NCBI GenBank assembly: GCA_949293295.1 | Contig: CASFCG010000016.1 | Location: 142,658 to 192,989, forward strand | Origin: an uncultured Cetobacterium sp. | Lineage (GTDB): Bacteria > Fusobacteriota > Fusobacteriia > Fusobacteriales > Fusobacteriaceae | Length of the DNA: 50,332 bases | Direction: 5' to 3' | In this document: positions 6,767 through 47,809 of the stretch, piece after piece | Position numbering within the stretch: the first letter of the stretch is position 1 | Layout of the letters: each line of letters opens with the position of its first letter | Made by a program: the position numbers and the translations under genes | The notes under the pieces: generated by a model | Database searches by the model: none | The model's input: only the letters and a program-made list of their open reading frames with translations | What the model was told of the DNA's origin: nothing

Positions 6767-8179
6767 TTATAATATAGGAGATATTAATTTTGAGATAGAT
6801 TCACAGATTCGTTCCCTTTTCTTTCTTTTTTTATAAGTTTTTAAATCCACTTGTTTTGAATTTAATTTATCTTCCTTGACTCTTTCTCTAAGCTCTTCAA
6901 TCTCGCCATATATTAATATATTTATCTCAAAATTCTGATACATACTTCTGTAGTCAAAATTTGCTGTTCCAACTAACGCTATCTCTTCGTCGATTATTAG
7001 AAGTTTGCTATGAATAAATCCTTTATTATATTTGTATATTCGAGCACCTAATCTGATTAATTCTCCATAAAAATACTGATTTGCCCAATAGACAAAAGTG
7101 TGGTCAGAAAGGTTAGGAATAATAATTTCTATCTCTATTCCTGATATTAGAGCTAATTTTAAAGCATCTAATATTGTTTCATCAGGGACAAAATAGGGAG
7201 TCTCAATTTGAATTTTTTTTTCCGCCTTTATAATCATATTTAAAATTACATCCCTTATTGTATTGAATTCATAATTTGGACCAGAGCTAACAAGTTGAAT
7301 TGCTCTTTCAACCACCTTATCTGAATGAATAAAGTTTATCTCTATATCTTTTTCACTATTTTTAGTTAAAAATTTCCAATCTCGTTCAAATTCATGGAGA
7401 TAGTAATTCACAATCTCTCCTTCTAAACAAAAGCCAATATCTTGCCAATCTCCTAATTTTCCTTTTCCAATATAATCTTTTCCGATATTAAGTCCACCAG
7501 AGAAACATAATTCATTATCAATGATAGTTAATTTTCTATGATTTCTATAATTTGCTCTTAAGTTACCAATTTTCATGAAAGGGAAATAAGAGGGGAAAAA
7601 TATCTCTATTTTTATTCCAGCTCTTTTTAACTCTTTTATACGTTTTCTTGATACTCCTCTTGTTCCAACTCCATCTATAATTATTCTTATATCTAAATCC
7701 TGTTCAGCCTTTTTAATTAATAATTCGTAGATTTTTCCTCCCACTTCATCATCATTGAATATATAATATTCCATATATATTGTTTTTTTTGCTTTTTTAA
7801 TAGCCTCTTTTACAGCTTCAAAATATTCATCCGTTTTAGAAAAAAGTTTAAATTTATTATTATAAGTTACTCTATTGTGTAGGGTTCCTTTTATGTATGA
7901 TTGTAATGTACTCCATTTTTGATATGATTCATTTTTTCTATCGAAATCTTCTTCTTCGTTAATCTCTTCATTTGCATAATATTTTGCTAATTCACGTCTT
8001 TTTTTAAATCGAATTCCAAAAAATAAATACATTATAAATCCAAAGTATGAAGTGAATAATAAAATAGTTATCCAAAATAGTGTGAACACTGGTTTTCTTC
8101 TTTCAAAGAAAATGATGATGCTAGCAAATATGATATTAATTATAATAAAATAATCTTTTAGTATTGCTAATAACTCCAT
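6767..8179 (-). CDS. cls: Cardiolipin synthase (phospholipase D family)
   Basis: Condenses phosphatidylglycerol molecules to cardiolipin at the inner membrane. Two membrane helices occupy roughly residues 8-25 and 31-56. Two HKD motifs follow: H214-R-K216 with D221, and H390-S-K392 with D397, each with the downstream G/S-x-N pattern. The length of 470 residues is standard for the ClsA type. GGAGG precedes the ATG. It has its own likely promoter and runs into the pyr promoter region with no clear terminator between. Confidence 0.93.
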   Translation of the reverse strand: MELLAILKDYFIIINIIFASIIIFFERRKPVFTLFWITILLFTSYFGFIMYLFFGIRFKKRRELAKYYANEEINEEEDFDRKNESYQKWSTLQSYIKGTLHNRVTYNNKFKLFSKTDEYFEAVKEAIKKAKKTIYMEYYIFNDDEVGGKIYELLIKKAEQDLDIRIIIDGVGTRGVSRKRIKELKRAGIKIEIFFPSYFPFMKIGNLRANYRNHRKLTIIDNELCFSGGLNIGKDYIGKGKLGDWQDIGFCLEGEIVNYYLHEFERDWKFLTKNSEKDIEINFIHSDKVVERAIQLVSSGPNYEFNTIRDVILNMIIKAEKKIQIETPYFVPDETILDALKLALISGIEIEIIIPNLSDHTFVYWANQYFYGELIRLGARIYKYNKGFIHSKLLIIDEEIALVGTANFDYRSMYQNFEINILIYGEIEELRERVKEDKLNSKQVDLKTYKKRKKRERICESISKLISPIL

Positions 8180-8280: not shown

Positions 8281-9066
8281 TTATTTAAATTTTAAATCTA
8301 GCTCTCTTATATTTAAACCCAGCTTCTTTTCATTTGATAACTGTCCCTTAATTTTTTTTATAAATGTTCCCATTTCATCTGCACTTCCAACTATTCTATT
8401 AAAAATTGCTAAATACTCAGTTATCAAGGGATTATCTATATCATAAGGGTATCTCATTAGATGGTCAATCTCACTCCAAGCCTCCTCAAAAACAGTACGA
8501 ACCTGAATTTCAACAAGAACTTCTTCTTTTTTAGTTACTGGAACACCTATCAAATAATGAATAGACCTATATCCATGGTCTCTAACTATAATTTCACATC
8601 CCATTTCCTTGATGCTATTTTCTAACTCCATCATATTATAGTCGCCTCTTCTAATATTTATTTGTGGAGTTTCTTTTGTATCCCATAAATTTGTTATTTC
8701 ACAATGAATATCTTTCCAATCATCTTTAAACAGATGTAACACTCTTATACCTATTAAATCTGTTATTATCTCTTTATAATTTTCGACTGATATATTTTTT
8801 TCTGCGTACTTAGAACCCTTTCTAATTATTTTTTCAATTAAATGAGATGGTTTTTTTACTCTTCTTCTGACAGAATGGACACTTTTGCAATCAATAAGTT
8901 TTGATACTATATGCTCAGCTTCTTTTTCTAGTCCAGGAATTAGTTCTTTATAATCTTTATATATTTTCATAAGTTCATCCCATTTTAAGCCTGTTGAATT
9001 AAAATAATCCTCACTAATTGAAAACGTCTTAAAAAACTCTTCCCTATTTTCAATATTTTCAGTCAT
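8281..9066 (-). CDS. RelA/SpoT-domain small alarmone synthetase
   Basis: Predicted (p)ppGpp-type synthetase, transferring pyrophosphate from ATP to a guanine nucleotide. Motifs in order are RVKKPSHLIEKI (69-80), DLIGIR (103-108), GYRSIHY (165-171) and EIQVRT (186-191) followed by EAWSEIDH (195-202). There is no hydrolase HD, TGS or ACT domain, so it is a stand-alone synthetase. Its length of 261 residues, with about 60 residues before the core, exceeds the ~210 of RelQ/YjbM. It is the last gene of a unit with a SIR2-like protein and an acidic protein, 12 bases after the latter. The subfamily, and whether it is a toxic synthetase, cannot be told from sequence. Confidence 0.85.
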   Translation of the reverse strand: MTENIENREEFFKTFSISEDYFNSTGLKWDELMKIYKDYKELIPGLEKEAEHIVSKLIDCKSVHSVRRRVKKPSHLIEKIIRKGSKYAEKNISVENYKEIITDLIGIRVLHLFKDDWKDIHCEITNLWDTKETPQINIRRGDYNMMELENSIKEMGCEIIVRDHGYRSIHYLIGVPVTKKEEVLVEIQVRTVFEEAWSEIDHLMRYPYDIDNPLITEYLAIFNRIVGSADEMGTFIKKIKGQLSNEKKLGLNIRELDLKFK

Positions 9067-9078
9067 CTTTTCCTCGCT

Positions 9079-10392
9079 TTATTCATATAATTTTTCTAAA
9101 CTAATTCTACATGTTTTTCTGTATGCCTTTAGTTCCTTATCTTTGAACTCTTGTTCACTAAGTGGAGCTAAAATCTTTATTTTCTCTTTTATATTAAATT
9201 TATTTCCATCAATTACATGAACTCTTTCTATTGATAATCTATCTCCTACTTCAACATTTAATTTTTCTAATTTACCACTAAGATTAACCCAGCTATCAAA
9301 CTCTGTAGTTGTTTCAAGTAGATTCAAAAGTGCTAGTTTATAGAACGAATTTTGAAAATATATCAATTTTTCTTTTTTGTTAAAGCTTAGTTGTTCAATC
9401 TCTTTACTTAAAAGTTCAAATTTCATAATCTCAATTCTATTTTCAGTTGTTATTCCTCCTGATAGTCCCTCGTTAAAAAAGCTTAATTTTTCCCCATTAA
9501 AAATATTTTTAAGTAACTCTACATTGTTTTTAAACCTTATTAAGTTAATGTTTTCATATATCTTATAGTAATAATTCCTATTTATAACTGTGAAGCTCCA
9601 GTCCTCTTTTAAATCAATCTCTAGTCCTAATCGAAACTCCCTATTTTTTATCTCTATATAGTGTTCACTATTTAGTTTCAAAATCTTTACTTGAAGCCCT
9701 CTAATAATGTTATTTGCTATTTTTATATCGGTAACTCCAAAACTTTTCACTATTGTTTTGGTAATAATCTCCTTTAGTGTAGTCATCTCAATAGGAATTT
9801 TATCAAGCTTCAAAGAGCTATATCTAATTTCCAATGCTGTTTCTAATAAATCAAATCTTTCTTCTGAAAAATTTAACTCTCTATTCTTATTAATCTCTTC
9901 TGTCTTTAGATTTTCATCTTCTTTTTTTCTTAATGGTATTTCAATAATTTTACCTATCTCTGAGTTATTTATTTTATCATTCAAGAAAATATTTTCTTCC
10001 TTCGATTCTATTTGAGTTAAATCTGCACCAGATTTTTCCAAATCCACTTTTGGATGGAAAGTTTTATCACTGTTTATAGATTCAGAAGAAAAATGACTCT
10101 CATTTAAAGAGATAATTTCTTCAGTTTCATTCTCCTCCAACCCTTGTATATAAGCTTGTGCCTTTTCAGAATCAATAGAACCAGAAGAAGAAACATCATC
10201 AAAGAATAAATTAGAAGTTGTATCTTCTATATTTTCAGTATCACTGTAAGAAACTTTATTAAAAGAGATAATCTCCTCAGAGATATTCCTCTCTAATTCT
10301 TGTATATGAGTCTCTTCGTTGCAGTTAACAGAATCAGAAGAAAAATCTGAAGATATAAAGATAACAGAATTTGTATTATCAGATTTTTGCAT
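9079..10392 (-). CDS. Acidic protein of unknown function, probable -1 frame continuation of the SIR2-like ORF
   Basis: I do not recognise a family. Residues 1-150 are highly acidic and Ser-rich, with imperfect repeats built on blocks such as EEIISFNK and EEIISLNE, each following an IQxLE element. Residues 190-437 look like a folded mixed alpha/beta domain. The annotated ATG has a weak AAGGA site. The same frame stays open upstream for 83 further codons without ATG, GTG or TTG and with similar acidic composition, back to 10641 inside the preceding gene, exactly at an A7 run. So the ORF is either expressed by -1 frameshifting from that gene, started internally at 10392, or cut off by an indel. 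Confidence 0.6.
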   Translation of the reverse strand: MQKSDNTNSVIFISSDFSSDSVNCNEETHIQELERNISEEIISFNKVSYSDTENIEDTTSNLFFDDVSSSGSIDSEKAQAYIQGLEENETEEIISLNESHFSSESINSDKTFHPKVDLEKSGADLTQIESKEENIFLNDKINNSEIGKIIEIPLRKKEDENLKTEEINKNRELNFSEERFDLLETALEIRYSSLKLDKIPIEMTTLKEIITKTIVKSFGVTDIKIANNIIRGLQVKILKLNSEHYIEIKNREFRLGLEIDLKEDWSFTVINRNYYYKIYENINLIRFKNNVELLKNIFNGEKLSFFNEGLSGGITTENRIEIMKFELLSKEIEQLSFNKKEKLIYFQNSFYKLALLNLLETTTEFDSWVNLSGKLEKLNVEVGDRLSIERVHVIDGNKFNIKEKIKILAPLSEQEFKDKELKAYRKTCRISLEKLYE

Positions 10393-10622
10393 ATTAGAAA
10401 CATCCTTTTCAGATTTTAATTCATTGAAAAATCGTTCTTCGTCTGTTTTTTCAAGAGGTTGTAAACTTGTATCTCCTTGCTCTTGGTTTATTATTTCAGA
10501 TACATCAACAGTTGATTCTTTCTCTTCATTAAAAACATATTCAAATCTACTTTCTATTAACTCTTCGTTTGACTGTTCCTCGTCATATTTTATATCTTCC
10601 GAAATATTTTCTTGATTTGGAG

Positions 10623-11447
10623 TTACCGTATATACTTTTTTTCAATTATATTATTTTTAATTCCTTTCTCTATATCAAAATCAATAGATAAAAAGTTTTT
10701 CAATTCACTGTATAACTGTTCTTCAGAATAAGGTAAAAATTTTACACCTAACCCATTTAATCTTTCAATAGTTTTAGCTTTTAATACATTAGATATTGTT
10801 GTAGCATATATATTTTCTTTATTTTTAACCCCTTTTAAAATGAACTCTAATACTTCAATAAAATCAACATCATTTAAGTCTATATCCATTATCAAAGTTG
10901 GATAATTTTCTATTTCTTCCCTAACCTTGTCAAAGAACTTTTTGTGTATCTCTAGAAGTTTTAATTTTTTAAAGTCTTGAGTTGAAGCAAACATTAAATC
11001 GTATCTCGTTACATCACCCAAAAGTTTATATAATTTAATTTCAGAAATCTCATCAGGTATTTTTTCATCTGTTGGAACTATTTTTCTCACTTTAGATAGA
11101 TTAATTTTCTCCAAAGTTAAGTCATAATCAGTAGAAAAGATAGCATTTATCTTATCATTCTCAAGAAAATCATCCAAAATTTCTACATTAGTTGCATTTG
11201 TTTCATAAGCTCTCTTTATCTTTTTTTGTAAAGTACTTTTACTACCAACAAGCCCATCTAAATATAGTTGAGCTGTTTGAAATAAAGAATTCTCATCCTT
11301 TACATATCCTCGAATACTTTCTTTCATATCTTTAGTTAAAACTCTAGATAAATCTCGTTTTGATGGATATTCTAACACTCTAGTCAAAAAACTTCCCAAA
11401 AATATATTAATTTTACTGTTATCTTGTAACATTTTAAAAAAGCTCAT
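10623..11447 (-). CDS. SIR2-like (SIR2_2) domain protein, apparently degenerate
   Basis: The pattern matches prokaryotic SIR2-like NAD-binding domains: INIFLGSFLTRVLEYPSKRD near the N terminus aligns with the glycine-rich GAGxS region, FSTDYDLTLEKI (about 105-116) with TTNYDxxLE, and KLLGDVTR (about 140-147) with the KLHGD catalytic region. A late TLIMDIDLNDVDF resembles the TLFIGYSxxDxDF closing motif. The usual Asn is Asp and the catalytic His is Leu, so NAD cleavage is doubtful. The stop lies 3 codons after an in-phase A AAA AAG heptamer, where the -1 frame opens into the next ORF. The assignment rests on motif order only. Confidence 0.55.
   Translation of the reverse strand: MSFFKMLQDNSKINIFLGSFLTRVLEYPSKRDLSRVLTKDMKESIRGYVKDENSLFQTAQLYLDGLVGSKSTLQKKIKRAYETNATNVEILDDFLENDKINAIFSTDYDLTLEKINLSKVRKIVPTDEKIPDEISEIKLYKLLGDVTRYDLMFASTQDFKKLKLLEIHKKFFDKVREEIENYPTLIMDIDLNDVDFIEVLEFILKGVKNKENIYATTISNVLKAKTIERLNGLGVKFLPYSEEQLYSELKNFLSIDFDIEKGIKNNIIEKKYIR
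10635..10641 (-). other. Candidate -1 programmed frameshift site (A AAA AAG)
   Basis: In the reading frame of the SIR2-like ORF the codons are GAA AAA AAG, so the heptamer A AAA AAG is in the phase required for -1 slippage, as in E. coli dnaX. Slippage would continue with GTA TAT ACG into a frame open for 518 residues, giving a protein of about 789 residues. AAAGGA lies about 19 bases upstream, farther than the dnaX stimulator, and no strong downstream hairpin is visible. Confidence 0.5.
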
Positions 11448-11674: not shown

Positions 11675-13375
11675 TTATTCAAATATTCTCAATTCAACTC
11701 TTCTGTTTTTAGCTCTTCCTTCTCTTGTAGCATTAGTAGCGATTGGCTCTGACTCTCCAACTCCATCACTTTCAATCGTTACTTTAAATCCTTTTTCATC
11801 AGCCTCTAACAGAGTCATTAAATAATCTGCCACCGCTTTCGCTCTTCTTTTTGATAATTTTAAGTTATAAGAATCTGAACCAGTACTATCTGTGTGTCCA
11901 ACTACGTTTACAAGAATATTATTTTCTCTTTCATTAATTTCTGCTGCTACTTCCTCTATTTTTTCTCTATCTAGTTTTGTTAAAACAGCTTTATCACTAG
12001 CAAAATTTAAATTAAGTGTGTATCTTTTTACTTCCTCAACTGGGATTGACTCTGGTTCTGGAATTGGTTCAACCTCTATAATTGGTTCAGGTTCAGGGAT
12101 AACCTCTTTTTGAGGAATGATATCTGTATATGTTGCAAACTTATACCCTACTCCAACTAAGAAGTTATAGTTTGTATATCCGTCTTTTCCAAGTTCAAGA
12201 CCTGTTTTAAAGTTATAAATCATTCCACCAGATTGTTCTATCTCCAAATTATACGATATTCTTCCAGTAAACTCAGGAGTTTTTGTAGCTCTTATACTAA
12301 ATGGTGTTCCAACTCCACCATTATCTGCCATCATATAACCTGTTAAATTTTTATCTCTATCTCCAGTTATTGCTACACCTTCTAAAGATATAGTATTACT
12401 TACTTTTCCATCAGCATTTGAGTTTTCAAATATGAAATCAATTCCCGCTTTCGTATCAAACATATTAATTTTTTGTTTGTCTATTTTCATTAGCAGATTG
12501 TCTTTTATAACTCCATCCTCTTTTATGCTATCTTGGTTTACCCCATAGTAACTTCCTCTAACTTTTGGTTCTAATCTAAAACTATTTCCGAAAGGAATAG
12601 CATATCTAGCTTCTAAGAAACCATTATAAGATGAGATATTGTAACTATTAGAGTTTGACTCAAGTTTTTGAAGGTTATTGGCAATAACTCTGTTGACTTT
12701 AAGATGAGAAAACTGATATCCTCCACCTGCCATTAATTTAAAATTTCCAAATCTTGTTCTTCCAAAAAGTCCGACATATCCACTATTAGCACTACCTTTA
12801 GAATCTCCAGTAAAGGATATATCTTGGTCATTACCTCCAAGTGCTAATCCCAAAGATGTATCATTTGTTAAACCGTATTCTAAACTAATTATTCCAGCTG
12901 CTGCACTGGACTTAGTTTTAAAGTTTCTATCTCCTGTCCCACCTAAGCTTGTTAAAGAGAATTTATCCTCCTGTTTTACATTTGGATATGCTAGTCTAAA
13001 CTGAATAGACATATCGTATTTTTTTGGTAGTATAGTTAAATAAGTCAAGTTGTCTTCAAAAAATCTTAGGTTTTCTCTTGCTAACTTTAGAGAATAAGAG
13101 TATGGACTATTTGCATATATTTGGTCAAGTAACAAAACTCTTTCCTCTGTATTAAACAGTTCATTATGAATTACCGAATTCTTCCCAGCTGTATTAATTG
13201 AGTTCAAAATTTCATTTAGATTTTCAGTTGATGTAGACCTAACAGCTTTTGGCTGAAGTTCGCCATACTGTAAGTTTGTATCTTGATTTGTAATTGTGTT
13301 ACCGAAAGAAATTTTTCCAACAAAAAGAGACATCAATACTATAAAGCACTTTTTGTTGATATATTTTTTATTCAT
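11675..13375 (-). CDS. Outer-membrane beta-barrel protein with C-terminal OmpA domain
   Basis: A cell-envelope protein that probably links the outer membrane to peptidoglycan. The N terminus is a signal peptide (MNKKYINKKCFIVLMSLFV, cleavage probably after SFG). Residues ~110-410 alternate polar and aromatic/hydrophobic stretches with many Gly-rich turns, resembling an autotransporter-type barrel. A Pro/Glu linker of repeated PEPEPI/EPIPEPE units (about 418-445) leads to the OmpA peptidoglycan-binding domain, with NFASDKAVLT, VVGHTDSTGSD and RAKNRRVELRI. The length of 566 residues exceeds classical OmpA. It is monocistronic. Confidence 0.85.
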   Translation of the reverse strand: MNKKYINKKCFIVLMSLFVGKISFGNTITNQDTNLQYGELQPKAVRSTSTENLNEILNSINTAGKNSVIHNELFNTEERVLLLDQIYANSPYSYSLKLARENLRFFEDNLTYLTILPKKYDMSIQFRLAYPNVKQEDKFSLTSLGGTGDRNFKTKSSAAAGIISLEYGLTNDTSLGLALGGNDQDISFTGDSKGSANSGYVGLFGRTRFGNFKLMAGGGYQFSHLKVNRVIANNLQKLESNSNSYNISSYNGFLEARYAIPFGNSFRLEPKVRGSYYGVNQDSIKEDGVIKDNLLMKIDKQKINMFDTKAGIDFIFENSNADGKVSNTISLEGVAITGDRDKNLTGYMMADNGGVGTPFSIRATKTPEFTGRISYNLEIEQSGGMIYNFKTGLELGKDGYTNYNFLVGVGYKFATYTDIIPQKEVIPEPEPIIEVEPIPEPESIPVEEVKRYTLNLNFASDKAVLTKLDREKIEEVAAEINERENNILVNVVGHTDSTGSDSYNLKLSKRRAKAVADYLMTLLEADEKGFKVTIESDGVGESEPIATNATREGRAKNRRVELRIFE

Positions 13376-45464: not shown

Positions 45465-46170
45465 TTTTATCACTTTCCTTATTAACTTTTTCTAAAATTT
45501 GCTCTAATTTTCTCTCAGCCCTTGTTCTAATTCTAAATTCTACTCTTCTTGATAATTTCTTATCCTCTTTTCCATTTAATATTATTCTTTTACTGTACGA
45601 AAGTCCATTAGCAGTAACTTTTTCTATCATAAAATTTTCATGCTTTTTCATAGAATTCAAGCTCATAACATAATGCAAAGTTGACCTTGTCCGATTTTGT
45701 GATAACTCCATATTTTTAAAATAAGATTCTATAGGAGTAGAACGGTTTGTCCACTCCGTCGAAGTATGTCCTTCTATTCTTACCTCTTCTATCTCATCAC
45801 GATATTTTCCAGAATTTAAAATTGCTATATATCTTGGAAAAAAATCATTTAATATCTCTTTAAATTTATTATTTAGCCTACTACTTCCTTGCTCAAAAAA
45901 TACATCCGGCTCCTTGAACTTAATAGATAATGTTTCTTGGTCTATGTAAGCATTCCATTCATTTAAATCCGCTTCAAACTCTTTAAATAACTCCCTATAA
46001 ATAGAGATTTTAATTCTTTTGTACTCACTCGCTATATCCGTCAATATCTGTTTTTCATTAGATATTTGTGTCATAAAAGAGATTGCAATAAACATAAAAA
46101 TTATCATTAAGCCAGACATTAAATCTGAAATTGACGGCCAGAAGTCATCATTTTTTATATAGTTGCTCAT
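45451..46170 (-). CDS. zorB: ZorB-like MotB/OmpA membrane protein
   Basis: Stator-type partner of ZorA. A single membrane helix (about 14-35) carries the conserved Asp (WPSISDLMSGLMII), as in MotB and ZorB proton channels. The periplasmic OmpA-like peptidoglycan-binding domain shows VFFEQGSSRLNN, EGHTSTEWTNR, NRTRSTLHYV and RRVEFRIRT. The length of 239 residues is typical. It overlaps ZorA by ATGA and the HNH gene by 14 bases. In Zorya the pair senses phage damage at the envelope and signals inward. Confidence 0.8.
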   Translation of the reverse strand: MSNYIKNDDFWPSISDLMSGLMIIFMFIAISFMTQISNEKQILTDIASEYKRIKISIYRELFKEFEADLNEWNAYIDQETLSIKFKEPDVFFEQGSSRLNNKFKEILNDFFPRYIAILNSGKYRDEIEEVRIEGHTSTEWTNRSTPIESYFKNMELSQNRTRSTLHYVMSLNSMKKHENFMIEKVTANGLSYSKRIILNGKEDKKLSRRVEFRIRTRAERKLEQILEKVNKESDKNEVN

Positions 46171-47681
46171 TTAGTCTCTCCTACCTTTTTTGCTAAATTA
46201 ACCACTTTTTGTAGCTCTATCGTCAAAGGAGTATAGTCATTAACAAATTTCTCCGACACCGCTGCTAATTGTTCTCCTAAAGATTGAAGTGACACATTCA
46301 AAGTATTTTCTAAAGCTGTATTTAGATTTTTTACACTTGTTTCTAAGTTAGAATTATTATTTTTTACCATAGTCTGAATATTATCTGATATTTTCTTCGT
46401 CAATGTAAATCCTTCATTTTCAAATTTAACAAAAGCTTTATTTATACTTTCTATTTGAGCTTCCATCATCTGAATATTAAGTTCACTTGTAGTTTTAATT
46501 GTTGTAGTTACCTCTTTTAAAGTTTCCACTATTCCTTCTTGCTGCTTTCTTATATTTTCCGTTGAAAATTTTGTTAACTCCTCAAAATAATTTTGAGTTC
46601 GATTAGCAATAGAAATTATACTTTCATTAAACTCTGAACTATACTTGTCCAAATTAGGTAACAACTCCCTAGCTTCCATAGAAATTTTGTTTAAGATTTC
46701 TATTGAGTTATTTAGAGATTTTTGTTGAGTATCAAACGTAACTATTTTGTCTCCTAATCTATTTGTAATCTCCACAATAGAATAGCTTCTTTCACTAATC
46801 TCTACTACCAACTCTTTAGCTTGTAACATTCCTTTATATATCTCAACTTGATTTTCATTCGTTTTTTCTACGGTTTCTTTATAGTGCTCTTGCCATTCTA
46901 ATAATCTCTCTACCGCTCTGTTTAAATGTTTAAAATTTTCTCCAAACTGTTCTTGTAACTGATTATTCAAGTCCCTTATACACTCTTGAATAGCTTCTGT
47001 AAAAGCTTTCATATTATTTTCCGCCATATTTTTAGCAAATACTCTAAATTCATCAATTAATATATTATTTCCTCTCTCTATTTCAACACCAATAGCCTCA
47101 TTAGTCTGAACTAATTTTCCAAATTGTTGTTCCATACTTTGCAGACCTAAATTTAAACACTCTTGTGCTTCTATTTGAGTCTTTCTCATATCATCTTTTA
47201 AACTTTTCATCTGTTCTACTAAGGAGGTTTCTTTATTTCCTACCAATTCCTCCCTTAAGATTTCTATTGAACTAATTAATTCTCTATTACTATTTGTTAT
47301 TGACTCTTTTATACCAAACATTAAATTAGTAATTTTCTCTAGAGATGTTTCACCTATATTCTCTTCTTTTATAACCTTTTTTACTCTGTTTGACTGGACA
47401 CTTTTTAAAATACTTGAAAATCCTAGTCCTAAAATAGAAGTAAAAAATGCTGTTTTCATTCCATCTAATAAAACTGGAATACTTGAGTCTAACTTCGTAG
47501 TATCAAATTTTAAAAGCCCATAAAATATTCCTACAAACGTTCCTATTATTCCCAAAACTGCTATTGAATTAGGAATTGTACTGCTTTCTTTTGGATTTCT
47601 TCTTATTTTCCAAAGCGAAATCATAAATAAAACTAACATAAGAACCGTAAAAGTTAAATTCATTGGTGTTAATAATTTCAT
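46167..47681 (-). CDS. zorA: ZorA-like MotA/TolQ/ExbB membrane protein with long coiled-coil tail
   Basis: Three membrane helices (about residues 8-23, 35-56, 70-95) include GMKTAFFTSILGLGFSSIL, the MotA/ExbB channel segment. About 400 residues of heptad-like, charged helices follow, with many Glu-Asn-Leu repeats, which fits the long cytoplasmic tail known for ZorA. The start at 47681 is behind AGAGGAGAG; the further upstream frame is unlikely. Long tails separate ZorA from flagellar MotA and from TolQ/ExbB. First gene of the operon. Confidence 0.8.
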   Translation of the reverse strand: MKLLTPMNLTFTVLMLVLFMISLWKIRRNPKESSTIPNSIAVLGIIGTFVGIFYGLLKFDTTKLDSSIPVLLDGMKTAFFTSILGLGFSSILKSVQSNRVKKVIKEENIGETSLEKITNLMFGIKESITNSNRELISSIEILREELVGNKETSLVEQMKSLKDDMRKTQIEAQECLNLGLQSMEQQFGKLVQTNEAIGVEIERGNNILIDEFRVFAKNMAENNMKAFTEAIQECIRDLNNQLQEQFGENFKHLNRAVERLLEWQEHYKETVEKTNENQVEIYKGMLQAKELVVEISERSYSIVEITNRLGDKIVTFDTQQKSLNNSIEILNKISMEARELLPNLDKYSSEFNESIISIANRTQNYFEELTKFSTENIRKQQEGIVETLKEVTTTIKTTSELNIQMMEAQIESINKAFVKFENEGFTLTKKISDNIQTMVKNNNSNLETSVKNLNTALENTLNVSLQSLGEQLAAVSEKFVNDYTPLTIELQKVVNLAKKVGETK

Positions 47682-47809
47682 CTTAGTTTTCTCTCCTCTA
47701 CATATTTTATAATTTTTATAACTTCCACACACTTTACTATAACTTTGGATTTTATATTTATCATTTATAGCCTATTAAAACTAGTTACAAAATAAATTGT
47801 TTTCCACAT

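Follow-up and report, generated by a model that had tools for sequence, protein, structure and literature searches.

A SIR2-like gene of Cetobacterium and related Fusobacteriaceae is probably expressed through a conserved -1 ribosomal frameshift with a distant helix as candidate 3' stimulator

Two overlapping reading frames in a 50,332-nucleotide stretch of DNA from an uncultured Cetobacterium species (the window, whose numbering is used for all positions below) raise the question whether they represent two genes, one gene interrupted by an insertion or deletion, or one gene that is read with a change of frame. ORF1 (10623..11447, minus strand) encodes a SIR2-like protein of 274 aa, the predicted short product, and its 3' end reads ATT GAA AAA AAG TAT ATA CGG TAA on the minus strand, with the stop codon TAA at positions 10623-10625. 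The heptamer A_AAA_AAG (GAA AAA AAG in the phase of ORF1) is located at 10635..10641 on the minus strand, three codons ahead of this stop, and ORF2 (9079..10641, minus strand) extends over 520 codons in the -1 frame. No start codon is present in the first 77 codons of ORF2 past the ORF1 stop, and the first ATG, GTG or TTG follows 230 nt beyond it. A sequence-only reading of the window had described the heptamer as a correctly phased slippery site of the dnaX type, ORF2 as lacking a start upstream of its first ATG, and the -1 frame as adding 518 residues to give a fusion of about 789. All of these descriptions were borne out, the predicted length of the fusion being 271 + 518 = 789 aa. The junction peptide of this fusion is predicted to be NNIIEKKVYTVTPNQENISED, and the short product is predicted to end with ...KKYIR. 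The genes of the window contain 15 in-frame copies of A_AAA_AAG in 14,469 codons; the heptamer alone is therefore not rare and the case for frameshifting rests on comparison. Another in-frame copy was noticed near position 46185, 18 nt before the end of the gene at 46167-47732 (minus strand) and followed by a gene in the -1 frame. That following gene starts independently at ATGA, preceded by GGAG, and ordinary coupling is likely there.

Homologues of ORF1 were identified in 51 of 61 genomes of the family and homologues of ORF2 in 44, and searches of the remaining phylum outside the family returned only weak SIR2 matches. Of the split loci, 31 from seven genera could be framed, and every one of them places ORF2 in the -1 frame of ORF1 with an overlap of 19-70 nt; ORF2 opens in the -1 frame at a 32nd locus (G052) as well. 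In 27 of these 31 loci a heptamer precedes the ORF1 stop by 2-3 codons (A_AAA_AAG in 25, A_AAA_AAA in two). The remaining four, from genera g3 and g6, contain no heptamer and keep the -1 arrangement. The sequence-only reading had named a phase and split shared by several species as support for frameshifting, and its proposal of programmed frameshifting gains support from the conserved frame and heptamer phase seen in this comparison. The two g3 junctions, L074 (G014) and L070 (G015), both end with TAT GCC TRA without a slippery heptamer, and the g3 hairpins TGAGGAT/ATCCTCA and GAGGAA/TTCCTC lie only a few bases downstream. At the g6 junctions, L061 (G036) and L064 (G037), CAA AAA CAG replaces the classical heptamer and precedes a perfect 11-bp hairpin, GTAGAAGAAGA/TCTTCTTCTAC, that includes the stop codon.

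One uninterrupted ORF with the same order of parts and a length of 541-1114 codons was found in 13 genomes from five genera, and a 14th (G051) carries both halves within one frame of 1154 codons. The existence of fused homologues in 13 genomes indicates that a fusion product of the same order is used elsewhere in the family. The fused state needs five changes on the ORF1 tree, so that split and fused states have been interchanged repeatedly. The peptide that follows the heptamer, KK-x-x-x-V, is kept in the split genera and is absent from all fused homologues except G002, which suggests that the RNA and the stop codon are what is conserved.

Local folding gave strong hairpins downstream of the g4 heptamer and, in g6 and g3, at the equivalent position. 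A local hairpin after the heptamer of the window and its genus was rejected because z-scores were near 0 when 55-95 nt were folded, and a long-range search was therefore undertaken, in which the best helix beginning 4-9 nt after the heptamer was selected for each sequence. In the window this helix consists of the 5' arm CGGTAACTCCAAA (10616..10628, minus strand), which begins 6 nt past the heptamer and contains the ORF1 stop codon, and the 3' arm TTTGGAGTTACCG (9729..9741, minus strand), which is located 893-905 nt past the heptamer and encodes F-G-V-T-(D); the arms are complementary at 13 of 13 positions. Helices of 10-18 bp were found in all 12 comparable Cetobacterium loci (ten from g1 and both from g2), beginning 4-8 nt past the heptamer, with 5' arms that take in the ORF1 stop codon and with 3' arms inside ORF2, 157-905 nt downstream. 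The Cetobacterium element can be written as (T)CGGTAACTCC or CGGTAATTTC pairing with GGAGTTACCG(A) or GGGATTACCG(A), and in every genome its 3' arm encodes the same homologous stretch of protein (F/L-G-V/I-T-D/E). Shuffled downstream DNA yielded an equally good helix in none of 200 trials for eight of the ten g1 genomes, including the window, and in one of 200 for the other two, and only one of 780 control positions along ORF1 reached the observed helix score. The minimum free energy (MFE) structure computed by RNAfold includes the helix core in 12 of 12 loci with mean pair probabilities of 0.94-1.00, even over 932 nt, and the helix of the window is present with a probability of about 1.

Covariation was analyzed over 25 loci (Cetobacterium and the hairpin genera), of which the selected positions were 97% paired, a fraction that is biased upward by picking the best helix at each locus. 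Six of nine pairs were altered on both sides and the covariation score was 0.485, compared with 0.218 after shuffling (0 of 500 shuffles as high); when the partner was displaced by one to three columns, the pairing fell to 18-64%. Within Cetobacterium alone, pairing was 99% (3 of 500 shuffles), with only two pairs altered on both sides. Genus g8 keeps the heptamer and no clear helix was found there. A second perfect complement of 14 nt, TCAAGAAAATATTT/AAATATTTTCTTGA, was noted in the window immediately downstream of the 5' arm (minus strand, 10602-10615 with 9981-9994; +19..+32 with +640..+653) and was set aside, as it lies outside the MFE fold. By these comparisons, what is above chance is a heptamer kept at the same place across genera together with a covarying helix, and this helix is likely to be the 3' stimulator of a frameshift.

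Codon usage provides a further view of the two arms. The codon ACC accounts for only 13 of 285 threonine codons in the g1 genes and ten of these 13 lie within the 3' arm, while CGG is used 11 times, ten of them as the last codon of ORF1 in the 5' arm. The homologous threonine is encoded by ACC in 12 of 12 Cetobacterium sequences and in one of 14 elsewhere, and in G015 the same residues G-V-T are written GGA GTA ACT without a helix. The simplest reading of this bias would be that selection acts on the nucleotides and not on the protein alone. An SD-like GAGG is located exactly 10 nt upstream of the heptamer in nine of ten g1 genomes, the window being the exception, and GAGG or GGAG is found 12-13 nt upstream in six other loci. 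The window has no well-placed SD-like element, only AGGA 20 nt upstream of the heptamer. In Cetobacterium of this genus other than the window, GAGG is the likely 5' stimulator. Neither the helix nor the SD-like sequence had been noted in the sequence-only reading. In dnaX-type shifting a single tRNA-Lys (UUU) would read both AAA and AAG; in the relative G005, whose 82 tRNA genes were read in part, the five tRNA-Lys genes seen all carry a UUU anticodon and none CUU.

The sequence-only reading had considered an A7 insertion or deletion, real or due to sequencing, to be the simplest alternative, in which the gene would properly be one ORF, and had taken uninterrupted ORFs in relatives as a sign of it. 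The window does contain an A7 run, it stems from a metagenome-assembled genome (MAG) of 1.18 Mb that is 83% complete, and fused relatives do exist. Among them, Cetobacterium sp. 2A (G002, L085; the L013/L085 junction) is the sole fused Cetobacterium and is fused only through an A10 run, compared with A6-A7 in its relatives. Apart from A10, its junction DNA matches the split genus and retains both the hidden stop and the long-range helix. The peptide KKKALSVTSD, which G002 encodes across the junction without a change of frame, is the one predicted for the Cetobacterium fusion (GKK|ALSVTP). G002 may have a one-base error in its homopolymer, or may represent a variant of this switch that works by slippage. 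A private indel in the window is nevertheless excluded as the explanation: 31 independent loci, whose runs are A6, A7 or longer, share the -1 split and its position, single-contig genomes (G024-G026) are among them, and conserved rare codons and a covarying helix surround the site. An indel is thus scarcely credible. It is also very improbable that ORF1 and ORF2 are separate genes with ORF2 translated from its own or a coupled internal start. In some g4 and g5 loci a GTG or ATG start overlaps the ORF1 stop, where re-initiation could contribute, and translation from the first ATG of the window ORF2 would yield a protein of 437 aa. Start positions, however, are not conserved and range from -7 to +863 nt relative to the ORF1 stop, G026 having no start codon at all for 863 nt, just as the window has none for 230 nt. 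In addition, the frame is always -1 and natural fusions occur in five genera.

Transcriptional slippage on the A-run, instead of ribosomal frameshifting, would suit the A9-A10 runs of some relatives (G052, G002 and g8), as this is the run length at which such slippage is known (PMC5009743). Most loci, however, have only A6 or A7 and so fall short of nine, with A6 in nine Cetobacterium and A7 in the window. A ribosomal mechanism is further indicated by the conserved AAA AAG phase, by the SD-like sequence 10 nt ahead of the heptamer and by the helix that starts 4-8 nt after it, which makes a transcriptional origin improbable. A different objection accepts the frameshift and regards the long-range helix as incidental to codon and amino-acid constraints. 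The 3' arm does encode the conserved G-x-T motif of the C-terminal domain and two-sided changes affect just two pairs within Cetobacterium; yet the same residues are coded otherwise outside the genus, as in G015, the rare codons ACC and CGG are confined to the arms, and in sister genera this 5' arm pairs locally, in hairpins that also covary. An incidental helix is accordingly regarded as unlikely. The reading preferred here, with a probability of roughly 0.87, is that ORF1 and ORF2 form one gene that is expressed through a conserved programmed -1 ribosomal frameshift with the distant helix as its 3' stimulator. The comparison of sequences supplies the frame, the heptamer, the covarying helix, the SD-like element, the codon bias and the collinear fused homologues; we infer slippage itself, its stimulation by the helix and a ratio of two products.

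In the proposed mechanism, both lysine tRNAs at GAA AAA AAG would re-pair one base back, from A_AAA_AAG to AAA_AAA. Unshifted ribosomes would terminate three codons on and release the SIR2-like protein of 274 aa, whereas shifted ribosomes would produce the 789-aa fusion with an acidic linker and a C-terminal domain. As the stop codon lies within the 5' arm, the mRNA entrance of a ribosome positioned on the heptamer would abut the base of the helix. Hundreds of bases must be transcribed before the 3' arm exists, so that ribosomes following closely behind the polymerase could not feel the helix, and a switch that depends on coupling is possible. In the cell, with ribosomes translating the 0.9 kb between its arms, such a helix may form only rarely. 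It seems somewhat probable that the shift is stimulated by a helix closed over up to 0.9 kb of coding sequence; stimulation would then be restricted to transcripts that extend to the 3' arm and in which this arm is free. Hairpins formed locally in the sister genera would be the same element, with a loop size that tracks the linker-coding sequence.

The assignment of ORF1 as SIR2-like held, with a match to PF13289 (SIR2_2) at an E-value of 2.9e-11. The AF2 model of ORF1 (pLDDT 85.7) matched ThsA, DSR2 and KomC in Foldseek (E about 1e-9, TM about 0.65), and the sequence matched ThsA at E 3.2e-13; ORF1 is a SIR2 fold of the ThsA/DSR2/KomC type. The catalytic histidine at the H-G-D position (H of YKMHGD in ThsA) is replaced by L, F, M, N or Y in 49 of 49 family members examined, and NADase activity is therefore not expected. 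The acidic linker is encoded in the -1 frame (9847..10634, minus strand) and differs greatly in length between species. It is followed by a conserved C-terminal domain of about 255 aa (9079..9846, minus strand; AF2 pLDDT 89.5). No Pfam, NCBIfam or PADLOC match above cut-off was obtained for ORF2, and neither ORF1 nor ORF2 matched a transposase family. For the C-terminal domain, a PDB sequence profile search revealed no relative, Foldseek against PDB and viral models returned nothing below 1e-3, and the best VIA-align hits were PH/EVH1-like chains with a Z-score of 4.3, which is not interpretable. We tentatively suggest that the short form might serve as a SIR2-fold scaffold without the C-terminal domain and that the shift might set the ratio of two forms in one complex.

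A RelA/SpoT-domain gene (8281..9066, minus strand; PF04607, E 9.9e-22) begins 12 nt downstream of ORF2 and is the usual neighbor in most genera. Its product is 61-81% identical across the family and far better conserved than the preceding SIR2-like protein. An obligate pairing of the two was considered and rejected, since genomes of g9 and g10 have this gene without ORF1 and those of g8 and g14 carry it elsewhere. A phospholipase-D-family gene (cardiolipin-synthase-like; 6767..8179, minus strand; PF13091) adjoins in most genomes, with varying side and orientation. The gene upstream of ORF1 in the window (11675-13375, minus strand) codes for an outer-membrane protein that combines an autotransporter-type barrel with an OmpA domain at the C-terminus; this gene was not seen upstream of ORF1 at the other loci examined.

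The closest known arrangement is E. coli dnaX (tau/gamma), which shares the A_AAA_AAG heptamer, short and long products with a common N-terminus, an SD-like element about 10 nt upstream (here in the genus, not in the window; such an element is optional in known cases) and a 3' stem 4-8 nt downstream, inside the 4-10 nt expected for this type. It differs in that the gene is unrelated, the long product here needs the shift, which is the reverse of E. coli, and the local hairpin of dnaX stands against a Cetobacterium stem closed over 157-905 nt. No dnaX was found above cut-off in the incomplete genome of the window, and dnaX of three relatives, considered as an internal control, showed no clear E. 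coli-like shift site. A bacterial -1 shift with a distant pairing partner is also known from IS3411-type ALIL elements, in which a loop pairs with an internal loop 44-104 nt away (PMC5009743); in the element described here a simple long helix joins arms separated by as much as 0.9 kb, and the gene is chromosomal and encodes no transposase. That distance of 44-104 nt was given as the longest for a bacterial structural partner in a 2016 review, which also mentions T7 gene 10, where an effect exerted from more than 200 nt away is left unexplained (PMC5009743). Stimulation that requires pairing with a distant downstream element is shared with barley yellow dwarf virus and relatives, which are plant RNA viruses with loop pairing over 4 kb and translation by 80S ribosomes (PMC5009743). 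The fold of ORF1 is that of the SIR2 NADase domains of ThsA, DSR2 and KomC, but here the catalytic histidine is absent, the C-terminal domain is another one, and the gene is nearly universal in the family and not a sporadic defence gene. The main text of a frame-transition survey of 1106 prokaryotic genomes does not mention SIR2 (PMC3711429). Among open-licence papers, none was found that links frameshifting to the ORF1/ORF2 gene, to a Fusobacterium SIR2 protein or to Cetobacterium. As far as searched, the kind of system is known, and the gene and the long-range form are new.

To our knowledge, few conserved -1 frameshifts are known in bacterial chromosomal genes beyond dnaX and mobile elements. 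The gene described here spans several genera, and all three classical elements are present in most Cetobacterium. Together, these loci would offer a natural series with a tight hairpin as the stimulatory stem at one end and a helix spanning 0.9 kb at the other, and stimulation of 70S frameshifting by a distant helix becomes directly testable. If the long-range stimulation is true, frameshift efficiency could report on transcription-translation coupling or on ribosome traffic. For the family as a whole, current annotation likely splits one protein family into two wrong genes.
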